Both the position numbers and the translations under genes were made by a program. The notes beneath the pieces are model-generated. The model worked only from the letters and a program-made list of their open reading frames with translations, ran no database searches and had not been told where the DNA came from. DNA of 38,733 nt from Methylobacter sp. (GTDB lineage: Bacteria; Pseudomonadota; Gammaproteobacteria; Methylococcales; Methylomonadaceae), in assembly GCA_025361585.1 (NCBI GenBank), contig JANYKK010000089.1, positions 1-38,733 on the forward strand, written 5' to 3'. Each line of letters starts with the position of its first letter. Position 1 is the stretch's first letter. Shown one piece after another: positions 3,156 to 38,715 of the stretch.

Positions 3156-3186
3156 GAACATCTTTGAATCTATCTAAATACACTAT

Positions 3187-3230
3187 TGGAGGCTGCGGGC
3201 GGAATCGAACCGCCGTAGATGGCTTTGCAG
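3187..3230 (-). tRNA. 3' fragment of tRNA-Cys(GCA): anticodon loop to CCA; putative prophage att site
   Basis: Reverse complement CTGCAAAGCCATCTACGGCGGTTCGATTCCGCCCGCAGCCTCCA: TGCAAA anticodon loop, T-arm GGCGGTTCGATTCCGCC, acceptor CGCAGCC-T-CCA. The 5' half is absent; sequence 5' of it (3231 onward) is unrelated and AT-rich. Confidence 0.85.
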
Positions 3231-25239: not shown

Positions 25240-25514
25240 TGAGCGCTCCTAAATGATTTTAAACCATCGACCGAAGCGACCAAACTTAGGGCGATGGATG
25301 ACGTATCGGGTTGGTCGACCGGTAGGAGCACCGGCAAGCCCGAAGGCTTCCCAATACGCCACCCACCATAAATAGTGGGGGCATAAAAAAAGCCATGAAC
25401 CTTCCGGCGCATAGCGTTAGCGCCTCCTAAATACGAGCGACCAAACCCGCACTGCCCATGTGGGGCAGCGTGGGCAAGGATAATGCTGTTTTGCAGGTTA
25501 GTCAATAGGTTCAT
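25236..25514 (-). CDS. Icd/Ash-like ORF preceding the antirepressor
   Basis: 92 aa, ATGA overlap (25236-25239) with antA-like gene; GFGRSYLGGANAMRRKVHGFFYAPTIYGGWRIGKPSGLPVLLPVDQPDTSSIALSL resembles leader/Ash/Icd-like ORFs seen upstream of antirepressors. Confidence 0.45.
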   Translation of the reverse strand: MNLLTNLQNSIILAHAAPHGQCGFGRSYLGGANAMRRKVHGFFYAPTIYGGWRIGKPSGLPVLLPVDQPDTSSIALSLVASVDGLKSFRSAQ

Positions 25515-33829: not shown

Positions 33830-34117
33830 TTACGCCGCCTGATCCAGTATCACTTTAAACTTAATGCCAGCCCTTCCGGCCAGCGTCAACAACATATCCA
33901 GACTAAACTTTTTCCAGTGTCCGCGCACCAGATCGGATATTCGCGCCTGCGTAACCCCTAGTTTCTCCGCAGCCTCGGTTTGCGTCAATTGCTGTTCGGC
34001 AATCCATAAACGCAACCGCGCCATCAACTCGGCGCGACATTGCAAAAGCTCCGCCTCATAAGGGGGAAAACCAAGGGTTAAGAACAGGTTTTCTCCAGCT
34101 TTAACAGTGTCTGTCAT
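33830..34117 (-). CDS. HigA-like HTH antitoxin
   Basis: QLTQTEAAEKLGVTQARISDLVRGHWKKFSLDMLLTLAGRAG; overlaps toxin gene. Confidence 0.8.
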   Translation of the reverse strand: MTDTVKAGENLFLTLGFPPYEAELLQCRAELMARLRLWIAEQQLTQTEAAEKLGVTQARISDLVRGHWKKFSLDMLLTLAGRAGIKFKVILDQAA

Positions 34118-34433
34118 GATTTACTCCTATTTGTTTAAAACGGGTTTTAGCCAGATCGATGTCAGATTGTGTGGTCTGGTGGGTTTTCTTTTGAAAGCAA
34201 TGCAGCACATAAATGCCTTCAGGTCGGCTTGCCAAATAAATAACTCGAAACGCACCGCCTGCACGGACTCGAATTTCGCGAACTCCAACGCCAATGCTTG
34301 GCATAGGCTTCCAGTCGGAAGGATCAAGGCCAAATTGCACCTGATACAGCTCAATGCCACAAGCGCGTCTCGCATCCTCTGGAAACGCCCGAAGATCATC
34401 TTTGCTGCTGCCTAAGAAAATAGTGTCTTTCAT
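34101..34433 (-). CDS. HigB/Gp49-like (RelE superfamily) toxin
   Basis: MKDTIFLGSSKDDLRAFPEDARRACGIELYQVQFGLDPSDWKPMPSIGVGVREIRVRAGGAFRVIYLASRPEGIYVLHCFQKKTHQT. Confidence 0.85.
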   Translation of the reverse strand: MKDTIFLGSSKDDLRAFPEDARRACGIELYQVQFGLDPSDWKPMPSIGVGVREIRVRAGGAFRVIYLASRPEGIYVLHCFQKKTHQTTQSDIDLAKTRFKQIGVNHDRHC

Positions 34434-34514
34434 ACAGCGCATTATATAAAAAATAAATAAATATACAAGTATTTATATAGCGAGAAGTCGAAAGCTAGTT
34501 AATTTTGCCGGATG

Positions 34515-34554
34515 CAAACAAAATGTTTGACATGGCAAACATTTTGTTTATAAT
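34515..34554 (+). promoter_or_regulatory. Operator-overlapped promoter: TTGACA (34527-34532), 16-bp spacer, TATAAT (34549-34554)
   Basis: CAAAC-AAAAT-GTTTG (34515-34529) and CAAAC-ATTTT-GTTTA (34536-34550) overlap the -35 and the spacer/-10. Confidence 0.82.
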
Positions 34555-34661: not shown

Positions 34662-34831
34662 ATGATAACCATAACCGTTGAACTATCCCAAGAGCAATCA
34701 TACCTCCTCGCCCAATTCTGCAAGCTGAAATACGAGTCAACGCCGTAAACGATGACGAAGCCTACACCCTGCAAGACGCCATCGGAAACGTTCAAAACGC
34801 ATTAAATGCAGCGGGTTTCAACCCGCGCTAA
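34662..34831 (+). pseudogene. Frameshifted small phage protein
   Basis: MITITVELSQEQSYLLAQFCK in one frame (stops at ...YESTP*), AEIRVNAVNDDEAYTLQDAIGNVQNALNAAGFNPR* in another; together resemble one ~60-aa phage protein. Confidence 0.6.
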
Positions 34832-34849
34832 CGATTTACAAGCAACGCG

Positions 34850-34879
34850 GTAGGCTGGGTAGAGCCCCGCGAAACCCAG
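34850..34879 (+). repeat. Single GTAG-type REP (GTAG-G-CTGGGT...ACCCAG)
   Basis: GTAGGCTGGGTAGAGCCCCGCGAAACCCAG, 6-bp stem. Confidence 0.65.
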
Positions 34880-34917
34880 ATTCAAAACAACAAACAAACC
34901 AAACATAAAGGTGACCC

Positions 34918-35190
34918 ATGAAAATCACAGAAGCCAAACAAAAACTAATGCAACTTGCCGAGGGCCAATACCACAGCCTTGAATACAGCATCACCGACAC
35001 CGGCAGAGGAAGTGCCAGTCAAAAATGCAAAGTCTATATCGACGGCCACGGCAGCTTTGAAGCCCCGCACTGGGAAGCCGCCCTAAGCGGCCTTGAGGAA
35101 GTCATCAACGGCAGGCCCGCTATTAGCGAAGACCTACCGCTATCCGGGCCAGCAGAAGACATAACCACAGCTGCCCAACAAATCGATTAA
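34918..35190 (+). CDS. Hypothetical phage protein
   Basis: 90 aa preceded by aaaGGtGAcccATG; MKITEAKQKLMQLAEGQYHSLEYSITDTG... Confidence 0.6.
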   Translation: MKITEAKQKLMQLAEGQYHSLEYSITDTGRGSASQKCKVYIDGHGSFEAPHWEAALSGLEEVINGRPAISEDLPLSGPAEDITTAAQQID

Positions 35191-35216
35191 CAGCAGTGCG
35201 CTCCTCCTCGCCCTCA

Positions 35217-35268
35217 CAGCCAGAGGGCTGTTTTTAAAAAGCCATTGGCAACAGTGGCTTTTTAAAAA
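35217..35268. terminator. Two consecutive terminator-like hairpins
   Basis: CAGCC-aga-GGGCTGttttt, then AAAAAGCCA-ttggcaacag-TGGCTTTTT (bidirectional). Confidence 0.65.
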
Positions 35269-35437
35269 ATAAACGAGCAGCCCGACTCGTCTCAAACTAG
35301 GCAACAACGCAGCAATTCAGGCAACTACAACAGTCGGAGATATTGAACATGGCTAAGAAGATGTGCGAGATTTGCGCCGATCAGGCACGCCATTGATCGG
35401 CGTCGCATTTGAACACATAATTATACGTGAGGTTAAT

Positions 35438-35578
35438 ATGAAGAAAATAGGCTGCAAATTTTTTGGGCATGACTGGGTCACATTTAAAAATACAGATGCC
35501 GACGGATATAAAACAAAAAACTGGGCAGATGGGAAAGAGTGTCAGCGCTGCGGAATGAAGAAAAACTATGATTATTAG
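35438..35578 (+). CDS. Small zinc-ribbon-like protein (46 aa)
   Basis: MKKIGCKFFGHDWVTFKNTDADGYKTKNWADGKECQRCGMKKNYDY; C..H..CxxC pattern. Confidence 0.5.
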   Translation: MKKIGCKFFGHDWVTFKNTDADGYKTKNWADGKECQRCGMKKNYDY

Positions 35579-35897
35579 ATGCCCGACACCCGGCCCGCTA
35601 TCGGGAGAGCAATGGAAGCCAAGCAATAGCGACGTTGGGCACGCATTCTTGGCGCACGAATGCGGCAACTGCGCCCGCGACAAGGCGATGCGCGAAGGCG
35701 CGGAATGCGACGACAACGAGAAATGCGAAATCATCGGCGCGTCGTTTCGCGGTGACGCCGTCGAGTGGCGAAGGTTGCCGGGCGGAGAAGTGACGTGCAT
35801 TGCATTCGTTCCTGCCGGAGATTCGATACCGCCACAGCGCGATGACAGGACGTTGGATATGTTCGAGTTGCCTAACGCAGAAATAACCGGCGGCTGA
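35568..35897 (+). CDS. Hypothetical Cys-containing protein; stop inside attC-like site
   Basis: 109 aa; AHECGNCARDKAMREGAECDDNEKCEIIGASFRGDAVEWRRLPGGEVTC. Confidence 0.55.
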   Translation: MIIRCPTPGPLSGEQWKPSNSDVGHAFLAHECGNCARDKAMREGAECDDNEKCEIIGASFRGDAVEWRRLPGGEVTCIAFVPAGDSIPPQRDDRTLDMFELPNAEITGG

Positions 35898-35927
35898 AAG
35901 CCGTCCGGGTTGATTGACGGGTTATGC
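35870..35927. repeat. attC-like recombination site 1
   Basis: GCCTAAC (R'')...GTTATGC (R'); inner CGGCT-GAA-AGCCG, continuing stem with unpaired T35904, G35909 and G35912 all on one arm. Confidence 0.65.
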
Positions 35928-36188: not shown

Positions 36189-36411
36189 ACGCGCATTTGC
36201 AATCGACCTGATGAATATTTGGCCTGGCAACCTCGGCGGCGATGATTTACAAGAATGCGCCATCAAGCATGGGCTACTGACGCCAGAGACTCGTCACGCA
36301 CCCTGCGCAGAATCAGGTTGCGCCTGCGCCGAACTTTGCTTCCCGGATGAATTTGATTCAGGAATAACCTGTTTCCGCAAAACAACGCTATTGACCGATA
36401 ACGAGGAGTAA
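36151..36411 (+). CDS. Hypothetical Cys-containing phage protein
   Basis: 86 aa, overlaps preceding gene; start uncertain. Confidence 0.5.
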   Translation: MPTLSNALLSAAERAFAIDLMNIWPGNLGGDDLQECAIKHGLLTPETRHAPCAESGCACAELCFPDEFDSGITCFRKTTLLTDNEE

Positions 36412-36734: not shown

Positions 36735-36953
36735 ATGGCATCGCATAACCTGGACGCGCTGCAACAAGCAGTTGACGACTGGAACAAGCGCCACCCGCCA
36801 GGAACAGCGGTAAAAATAACCAACAATGCCGGGATTGATACACTGACAACAACAAAATCCGTGGCGATGATTTATGCAAAATCTGAGGCCGTGGTGTACA
36901 CGCACTGCAAGCCGGGCTTTTTTAATATTAATAAATTGGCGGTAATAGAATGA
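36735..36953 (+). CDS. Hypothetical phage protein
   Basis: 72 aa, ATGA overlap with endolysin gene. Confidence 0.55.
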   Translation: MASHNLDALQQAVDDWNKRHPPGTAVKITNNAGIDTLTTTKSVAMIYAKSEAVVYTHCKPGFFNINKLAVIE

Positions 36954-37516
36954 ATATAAGAACAATAATCAACGACGTTATCGAAAAAGAAGGCGGATTT
37001 GTAAATCACCCAGCGGACAAGGGCGGGGCGACAAACTACGGCATCACCGCCATGAGTTACGCCGAATACTTTAAATTCCACGTAGACGCCGTGACCATCG
37101 ACATGATCAAAGCCATCGTGCCGCCGGTGGCTGAAAAAATATACTACGCGCTTTATTTTGTCCGCCCCAACGTCGTCAGCCTGCCCGAAATCATTCAGCC
37201 GATTATGGTTGATATGGCCGTCAATCACGGATGCAGGGGTGCGGTAAAAATACTGCAAAAAGCCCTGGTATCCGATGGTTACAGCTTTAGCCCGCCCGAC
37301 GGGATCATCGGCGAGAAAACAATAGATGCAGCCGGTCAAGCTGTCGCCCAGCTTGGGCAGGTCTTTGTGTCCACCCTGGTCAACTGCCGAATCGATTACT
37401 ACAACAAAATTATAGCAAACGACCCCAGCCAAGCCGCATTCAAAAACGGCTGGATCGCACGCGCCGAGTCATTCCGGCCAGCAGAAACAGGACAACACAG
37501 CGAGGCGACGGCATGA
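36950..37516 (+). CDS. Endolysin, GH108-type muramidase
   Basis: EKEGGFVNHPADKGGATNYGITAMSY...VDMAVNHGCRGAVKILQKAL...DGIIGEKTIDA. Confidence 0.9.
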   Translation: MNIRTIINDVIEKEGGFVNHPADKGGATNYGITAMSYAEYFKFHVDAVTIDMIKAIVPPVAEKIYYALYFVRPNVVSLPEIIQPIMVDMAVNHGCRGAVKILQKALVSDGYSFSPPDGIIGEKTIDAAGQAVAQLGQVFVSTLVNCRIDYYNKIIANDPSQAAFKNGWIARAESFRPAETGQHSEATA

Positions 37517-37806
37517 GAAAGCCCCTACTCGCACCGAGAGACCCGGCGACCGAATTCGCCCGCGACGACATTGTCAAGATAGCAAAGTGCTCGGCGGGCA
37601 AGATTATCAAACTCACCCAGCTCAGCAAATACGGGTTTCCACGGTCTCACCGGCACGGCCCCAAAAAACTCGCGCTATACCCAAGGGCAGCCGTTGAAAA
37701 GTGGCTGCAAAACAACGACATAAAGAGCATCGTCATCCCGGTAAAAGCGTTTAGCTCGGTAGGGGGCGCATCGCGCCCCATTTCGGAGTCCAACCGTACT
37801 TCTTGA
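37513..37806 (+). CDS. Putative AlpA/excisionase-like HTH protein; C-terminus runs into REPIN
   Basis: DDIVKIAKCSAGKIIKLTQLSKYGFPRSHRHGPKKLALYPRAAVEKWLQNN; last ~17 aa encoded by the repeat. Confidence 0.5.
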   Translation: MRKPLLAPRDPATEFARDDIVKIAKCSAGKIIKLTQLSKYGFPRSHRHGPKKLALYPRAAVEKWLQNNDIKSIVIPVKAFSSVGGASRPISESNRTS

Positions 37807-37882: not shown

Positions 37883-37962
37883 CGGGCTTCGCGGCTTTTT
37901 GCGAAGGTCGCCTCGAATGATGGGTTATGCCGCCTACCCACGAAGCGCGGTTGGAGAGACAA

Positions 37963-38259
37963 ATGAACCTTAAATTTCGCAAGAAACCCGTAGTAATCGA
38001 AGCCTTCCAAATGACCAAAGATCGCCGTGCAAGCAACGCGGACTGGCCGGAGTGGATGCACCGTGCATGGCAGCTTGACCGCGAAACGCCCGGCTCTCTG
38101 TACCCGACCGAAGAGGGAACTGGCGACGGACTGCTGTCGATTGGCACACTCGAAGGGCCGCACTTGGTTTCGTGGGGTGATTGGATCATCCAAGGCGTGA
38201 AGGGCGAACTGTACCCATGCAAGCCTGACATTTTCGAGGCGACGTATGAAGCGGCCTAA
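37963..38259 (+). CDS. Phage/cassette-type hypothetical protein; stop inside attC-like site
   Basis: MNLKFRKKPVVIEAFQMT...WPEWMHRAWQ...GTLEGPHLVSWGDWIIQGVKGELYPCKPDIFEATYEAA. Confidence 0.8.
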   Translation: MNLKFRKKPVVIEAFQMTKDRRASNADWPEWMHRAWQLDRETPGSLYPTEEGTGDGLLSIGTLEGPHLVSWGDWIIQGVKGELYPCKPDIFEATYEAA

Positions 38260-38324
38260 CGCAAAAGTCACCGTGACTCCGGCAGCTTTATCGCCGGAGG
38301 CTCCGGTGGACTGCCGGGTTGTGC
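38254..38324. repeat. attC-like recombination site 2
   Basis: GCCTAAC...GTTGTGC; inner CTCCGGC-AGCTTTATC-GCCGGAG; outer AGTC-ACCG/CGGT-g-GACT with unpaired G38308 on the same arm as in site 1. Confidence 0.65.
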
Positions 38325-38349
38325 CTGGCGCTGACAACGGAGAAAGAAA

Positions 38350-38607
38350 ATGAGAGGACGTAGCAGTTTGGCGTTGGCTGTAATGCTGGCGATTTCCGCA
38401 AGCCTACCGACTGTGCAGGTTTGCACGCGCCGAGAGGTTGATTGGTGGGGCGGCAGGAGAGAGCCGCACAACAGAGGGCGACGAGCCGAAAATGATGCCG
38501 CAGCACTGGCGAAGGCAGAAGCGAAGCGCCAACGGAAGGCAGCGAAACGGCTTGCAAGTGTTGCCGCTAGCACTGCTGATTCCGATGGGCACAACGTTTC
38601 GAGCTAA
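38350..38607 (+). CDS. Putative small secreted/basic protein; stop inside candidate attC 3
   Basis: 85 aa MRGRSSLALAVMLAISASLPTVQVCTRREVDWWGG...; N-terminal hydrophobic segment. Confidence 0.4.
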   Translation: MRGRSSLALAVMLAISASLPTVQVCTRREVDWWGGRREPHNRGRRAENDAAALAKAEAKRQRKAAKRLASVAASTADSDGHNVSS

Positions 38608-38715
38608 GCACCGCTTCCCCGTGAGCTTTATAGCTCCACAGTCCTTCGGACATCTCAACCTTTTAAAAAAATCATCAATAGCCGATGAAGCGTGTGCTTG
38701 AGCGAGGCGTTATAC
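38589..38715. repeat. Candidate long attC-like palindrome 3 (degenerate outer boxes)
   Basis: AACGtttCG...AAGCACCGCTTC / GAAGCG-T-GTGCTT...CGaggCGTT; outer boxes GCACAAC/GTTATAC; 69-nt loop. Confidence 0.4.

Follow-up and report, generated by a model that had tools for sequence, protein, structure and literature searches.

A prophage with an attC site

The window analyzed here, the whole stretch of 38,733 nucleotides from contig JANYKK010000089.1 of a Methylobacter draft genome, contains a prophage. Genes for terminase, portal, capsid, primase, antirepressor and a CI-type repressor, together with a C4 RNA, were found to the left of an integron-type recombination site, attC1, and the gene of a GH108 endolysin was found to its right (table 1). 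Phage genes thus flanked attC1 on both sides, in agreement with the prophage location given in the preliminary description. At about 3166-3215 on the minus strand, the left prophage end resembled, by eye, the 3' half of tRNA-Cys beside comF and bioB, and this half tRNA is probably attL. No intact tRNA was detected in the window by ARAGORN, no intact tRNA-Cys copy was found in the assembly, and no phage integrase was found among the large ORFs of the window. Because the window lacks both an integrase and an intact tRNA, the right prophage end should be located beyond it; the window stops inside a cassette array and does not cover that end. Comparison of the left junction with the right end gave no convincing direct att repeats. 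The C4 antisense RNA (Rfam RF01695, 63 bits) occupied positions 25287-25373 on the minus strand, upstream of an AntA/AntB-type antirepressor gene. The prophage also contained a toxin-antitoxin-like pair, Gp49/HigB-type and HTH_37 (33830-34117 and 34101-34442, minus strand), and a 34-bp near-perfect palindrome (34516-34549) was present between this pair and ORF 34918.

Table 1. Coordinates of attC sites, cassettes and neighboring genes in the window
Feature	Position	Strand	Description
ORF, 109 aa	35568-35897	+	stop 35895-35897 inside the attC1 hairpin; weak phrog_6074
attC1	35870-35927	+	58 nt in all, very short variable loop; covariance model R1, family alignment, blastn relatives, fold
attC1 R'' box GCCTAAC	35870-35876	+	from sequence; followed by spacer
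attC1 L'' box AATAACCGG	35882-35890	+	from sequence; followed by loop GAA
attC1 L' box	35905-35915	+	extra bases T35904, one G among 35907-35909, G35912
attC1 R' box GTTATGC	35921-35927	+	from sequence
Endolysin (GH108 + PG_binding_3)	36950-37516	+	lies after attC1 and before the right-end array; shares 62% identity with the G047 prophage endolysin
attC2, right half only	37902-37930	+	L' and R' GTTATGC (37924-37930); read from sequence, not scored by covariance model
Cassette A	37925-38318	+	ORF 37963-38259, 98 aa, phrog_419, ends in attC3
attC3	38254-38324	+	R'' GCCTAAC; R' GTTGTGC (38318-38324)
Cassette B	38319-38709	+	ORF 38350-38607, 85 aa, no family found
attC4, probable	38589-38715	+	R'' GCACAAC (38589-38595); R' GTTATAC (38709-38715); long variable loop

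The sequence and coordinates of attC1 in the preliminary description were exact, and its boxes, spacers and stems were as claimed. The inner L boxes, the spacers left unpaired and the extrahelical bases of a single arm were recognized from sequence, fold and family alignment; a check of the sequence gave CGGCT-GAA-AGCCG as the inner stem and confined the extra bases to the right arm. These bases are T35904, one G among 35907-35909 (G35909 in the preliminary description) and G35912. Compared with the consensus RYYYAAC/GTTRRRY, the outer box GCCTAAC fitted and GTTATGC had one mismatch. This mismatch had been entered as a caveat; it is real, but the same box terminates several attC sites in host-family arrays and is therefore no defect. 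Cleavage is expected after G35921 on the bottom strand.

The 109-aa ORF does end inside the hairpin, as had been described. Its residues 10-98 were related to phage 16-3 p082 (37%) and to Ralstonia plasmid proteins, and the residues from about 101 onward were encoded by attC1. The right edge of the cassette and the ORF end were present, and no R-box with one mismatch or fewer, hence no left edge, was found in 34800-35600. Because no left edge was found there, attC1 is perhaps a lone site closing a phage-type gene, and it may be unable to excise a cassette.

Three additional complete or partial attC sites at 37.9-38.7 kb, as well as the arrays of related prophages, were absent from the preliminary description. 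An array of a right-half site (attC2), attC3 and a probable attC4 extended to the contig end. The left arm of attC2 was absent and a palindromic element, flanked by an inverted repeat (37753-37778/37863-37888, 26 bp, 96% alike), stood in its place. Apparently, this element took the place of an attC left arm as well as of the 3' end of ORF 37513-37806. Both edges of cassettes A and B (37925-38709) were readable; of the outer attC sites, one is a half site and the other is degenerate. The protein of cassette A shared 83% amino acid identity with a protein of the uncultured phage Caudoviricetes sp. MW202615, and its phrog_419 family is common in phages of many hosts.

Homology, covariance and folding of the sites

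The attC1 region was compared by blastn with 237 host-family genomes, and the hairpin itself had matches at 83% over 53 nt in G181 and G183 and at 78% in G122. The relatives in G181 and G122 were located in arrays of several attC sites, with an integron integrase a few kilobases away on the same contig. A match of window positions 36362-36392 in G012 sits among chromosomal-type genes and was dropped as chance. The same DNA region had no match in phages and plasmids. We then scored the sites with a covariance model (R1) built on 19 attC sites from arrays of the host family, leaving out attC1 and its BLAST relatives in G122, G181, G183 and G038. The score of 35870-35927 on the plus strand was 51.1 bits (E 1.3e-10 in the window; R1 E-values are rough because the calibration was shortened). 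All 17 invariant columns of R1 were kept in attC1, and a search for this 17-column pattern in control DNA (277 kb) and in 100 windows simulated by a Markov model gave no match. Once cut to arms of 24 nt and 29 nt, the 19 sites and attC1 were aligned without gaps. The extra bases T, G and G were the same as those of two array sites (L064 3132 and L068 9494). In the family sites used for R1, 9 of 19 stem pairs had changed on both sides, and none of 500 shuffles reached the covariation score. The preliminary reading of the site as an attC was thus borne out by the family model, by homologs in integrase-linked arrays, by the conserved extra-base pattern and by orientation.

With its filters off, the covariance model overlooks attC sites with long loops, and filtered searches were therefore used for those. 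attC3 scored 37.3 bits in R1 (E 3e-5 genome-wide, again rough) and 23 bits with the filters off. The probable attC4 was not reported by R1; in its bottom-strand DNA fold the R and L boxes were paired (z -2.4). Folding of attC1 on both strands, which the preliminary description had asked to be checked, was observed as well, with z values against shuffles of -2.6 (top) and -1.8 (bottom). With R-box pairs enforced, the attC fold accounted for about 0.66 of the ensemble on the top strand and 0.46 on the bottom strand, and these shares fell inside the range of other family attC sites. By itself, folding is weak evidence for attC1; homology and the covariance model are the decisive tests.

Integrons and related prophages of the host family

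An integron integrase above the curated cut-off was found in 107 of the 237 host-family genomes, and integrons are therefore native to the host group. In the genome studied here, R1 found about 18 further attC sites on other contigs. That the window holds no intI, as was noted before, was confirmed, and no match to TIGR02249 over the cut-off was found in the host genome either, an assembly of 400 contigs that is 81% complete; such a draft may hide an integron integrase. A complete integron, that is, intI with attI and promoter, was accordingly not recovered. What was present is attC1 and attC3 on one strand, 2.3 kb apart, with no intI over the cut-off. Because an integron integrase is lacking in the window and in this 81%-complete genome, we class the attC cluster as a CALIN, a group of two or more attC sites that has no integron integrase in its neighborhood.

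Prophages with attC arrays were found in four other host genomes (G047, G048, G176 and G117). The closest relatives by primase were G047 and G048 (81% identity), followed by G175 and G176 (about 60%; G176 59%); the G175 prophage stretch ends at a contig end. In the G047 prophage, the order was endolysin, small ORFs, attC sites (C1:988085-988260 and 988554-988635), ORF6N antirepressor and tyrosine integrase, and relatives of the window ORFs 36414 and 36735 and of the endolysin occurred in the same order. In G048, a cassette bounded by attC was located between the tail genes and the integrase, which lies beside a dusA-like gene. The G176 prophage had three clear attC sites and one weak site (C21:738-2113). 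In G117, two prophages (L143 and L148) on one chromosome had endolysins 42-43% identical to that of the window and four attC sites each; their arrays were closely similar, one also contained transposase genes, and together they made up two of the three attC clusters of that genome. The G047 and G117 genomes are near-complete. No cassette gene was common to different arrays. R1 found no attC in the stretches examined of more distant family prophages (G132, G061, G062, G071 and G073) or of prophages outside the family (G296 and G273, the latter cut at a contig end).

Origin of the cassettes and comparison with known systems

We consider it likely that 35870-35927 is a true attC in a temperate tailed phage, and that its cassettes are phage cargo, probably acquired from host integrons with a host IntI acting in trans. 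Chromosomal integrons within the host family would most likely be the source of the cassettes. When single-stranded, the bottom strand would form a hairpin; an integron integrase, provided by the host in trans, could bind to its AAC/GTT boxes and extra bases, and strand exchange would take place at G^TT. Recombination of attC1 by host IntI is plausible because attC sites of virulent phages were recombined by IntI1 (Qi et al., PMC9892861). In the window, in G047 and in G117, where the reading direction was compared, arrays and lysis-side genes had the same strand. Since the arrays run in that direction, phage transcripts could read the cassettes carried as cargo, and some benefit might follow; through infection, the phage could spread them. 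The presence of arrays in related prophages of four other host genomes suggests that this phage group repeatedly takes up gene cassettes from host integrons. More tentatively, a group of temperate phages may possibly keep the region near the integrase as a cassette dock that host IntI loads and exchanges in trans; small genes, many of them phage-like, would then be moved between hosts by phage and integron together. On a circular phage, attC1 could also let the whole phage act as a giant cassette.

There are other potential histories of these sites. First of all, attC1 and the array might be leftovers that entered in a single event of recombination with a host array, illegitimate or homologous, and have ceased to be substrates. 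This would fit an element without integrase in which attC2 is only a right half, attC4 is degenerate and no left edge was seen for the attC1 cassette in 34800-35600, and the authors of IntegronFinder regard CALINs as degraded integrons. Nevertheless, attC1 keeps every invariant column of R1 (17 of 17) and folds well on the bottom strand, and the five prophage arrays with differing cassette genes look like repeated gain, so we regard a single past capture as somewhat unlikely. It is improbable that the right-end array is a host chromosomal integron adjoining the prophage rather than its cargo. Phage genes flank attC1 on both sides, the arrays of G047 and G048 are internal to the prophage, before the integrase gene, and the presumed attL at about 3166-3215, in a window with no intact tRNA or integrase-sized candidate, puts the right end further out; on the other side stand the termination of the contig in the array and the numerous further attC sites that this genome has on short contigs. 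Unrelated sequences may also have been joined at an attC repeat in a chimeric metagenome contig, given a draft of 400 contigs and the known tendency of attC repeats to hamper assembly, but the collinearity of ORFs 36414 and 36735 and the endolysin, right of attC1, with the G047 prophage and the recurrence of arrays in the near-complete G047 and G117 genomes make this very improbable. A terminator or regulatory RNA hairpin merely resembling attC, as a strong hairpin at an ORF end and one weak terminator-like match on the minus strand might indicate, was rejected as exceedingly improbable, since the coding strand at the site has no terminator-like match, Rfam has no match at attC1 and the site both agrees with a specific attC model and has homologs in arrays.

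If the sites work, the reading of the cassettes as phage cargo would make phages a regular route for the travel of integron cassettes, and the host integrase would edit the cargo of the phage. The related prophages with attC arrays, whose hosts are rich in integrons, form a natural set for testing the entry of cassettes into phages.

The chromosomal attC sites of the host family (arrays of G181, G122, G038, G035, G029 and G100) have the R and L boxes, the spacers of 5 nt, the one-sided extra bases, the direction and the GTTATGC box in common with attC1, which differs by lying in a prophage and by its very short variable loop, the whole site measuring 58 nt. Stenotrophomonas phage S1 (EU849489) has a related primase and terminase but, unlike the window prophage, no attC by R1 in the stretch examined. 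Prophage p16 of Vibrio anguillarum is bounded by attC and acquired part of its host's integron, intI included (PMC9892861). Both p16 and the window show a temperate phage associated with attC; however, intI is absent from the window, and the prophages of G047 and G048 each encode a tyrosine integrase of their own. In fact, attC and CALINs in phages are already known: integron parts in 21 phages were reported in 2023 (Qi et al., PMC9892861), including phage CALINs, clusters of attC without intI whose cassette genes are small or phage-like (Qi et al. 2023, PMC9892861). The window shares these properties. In contrast to those CALINs, the arrays described here recur in related prophages, and this recurrence over several host species with differing cassettes seems to be new.
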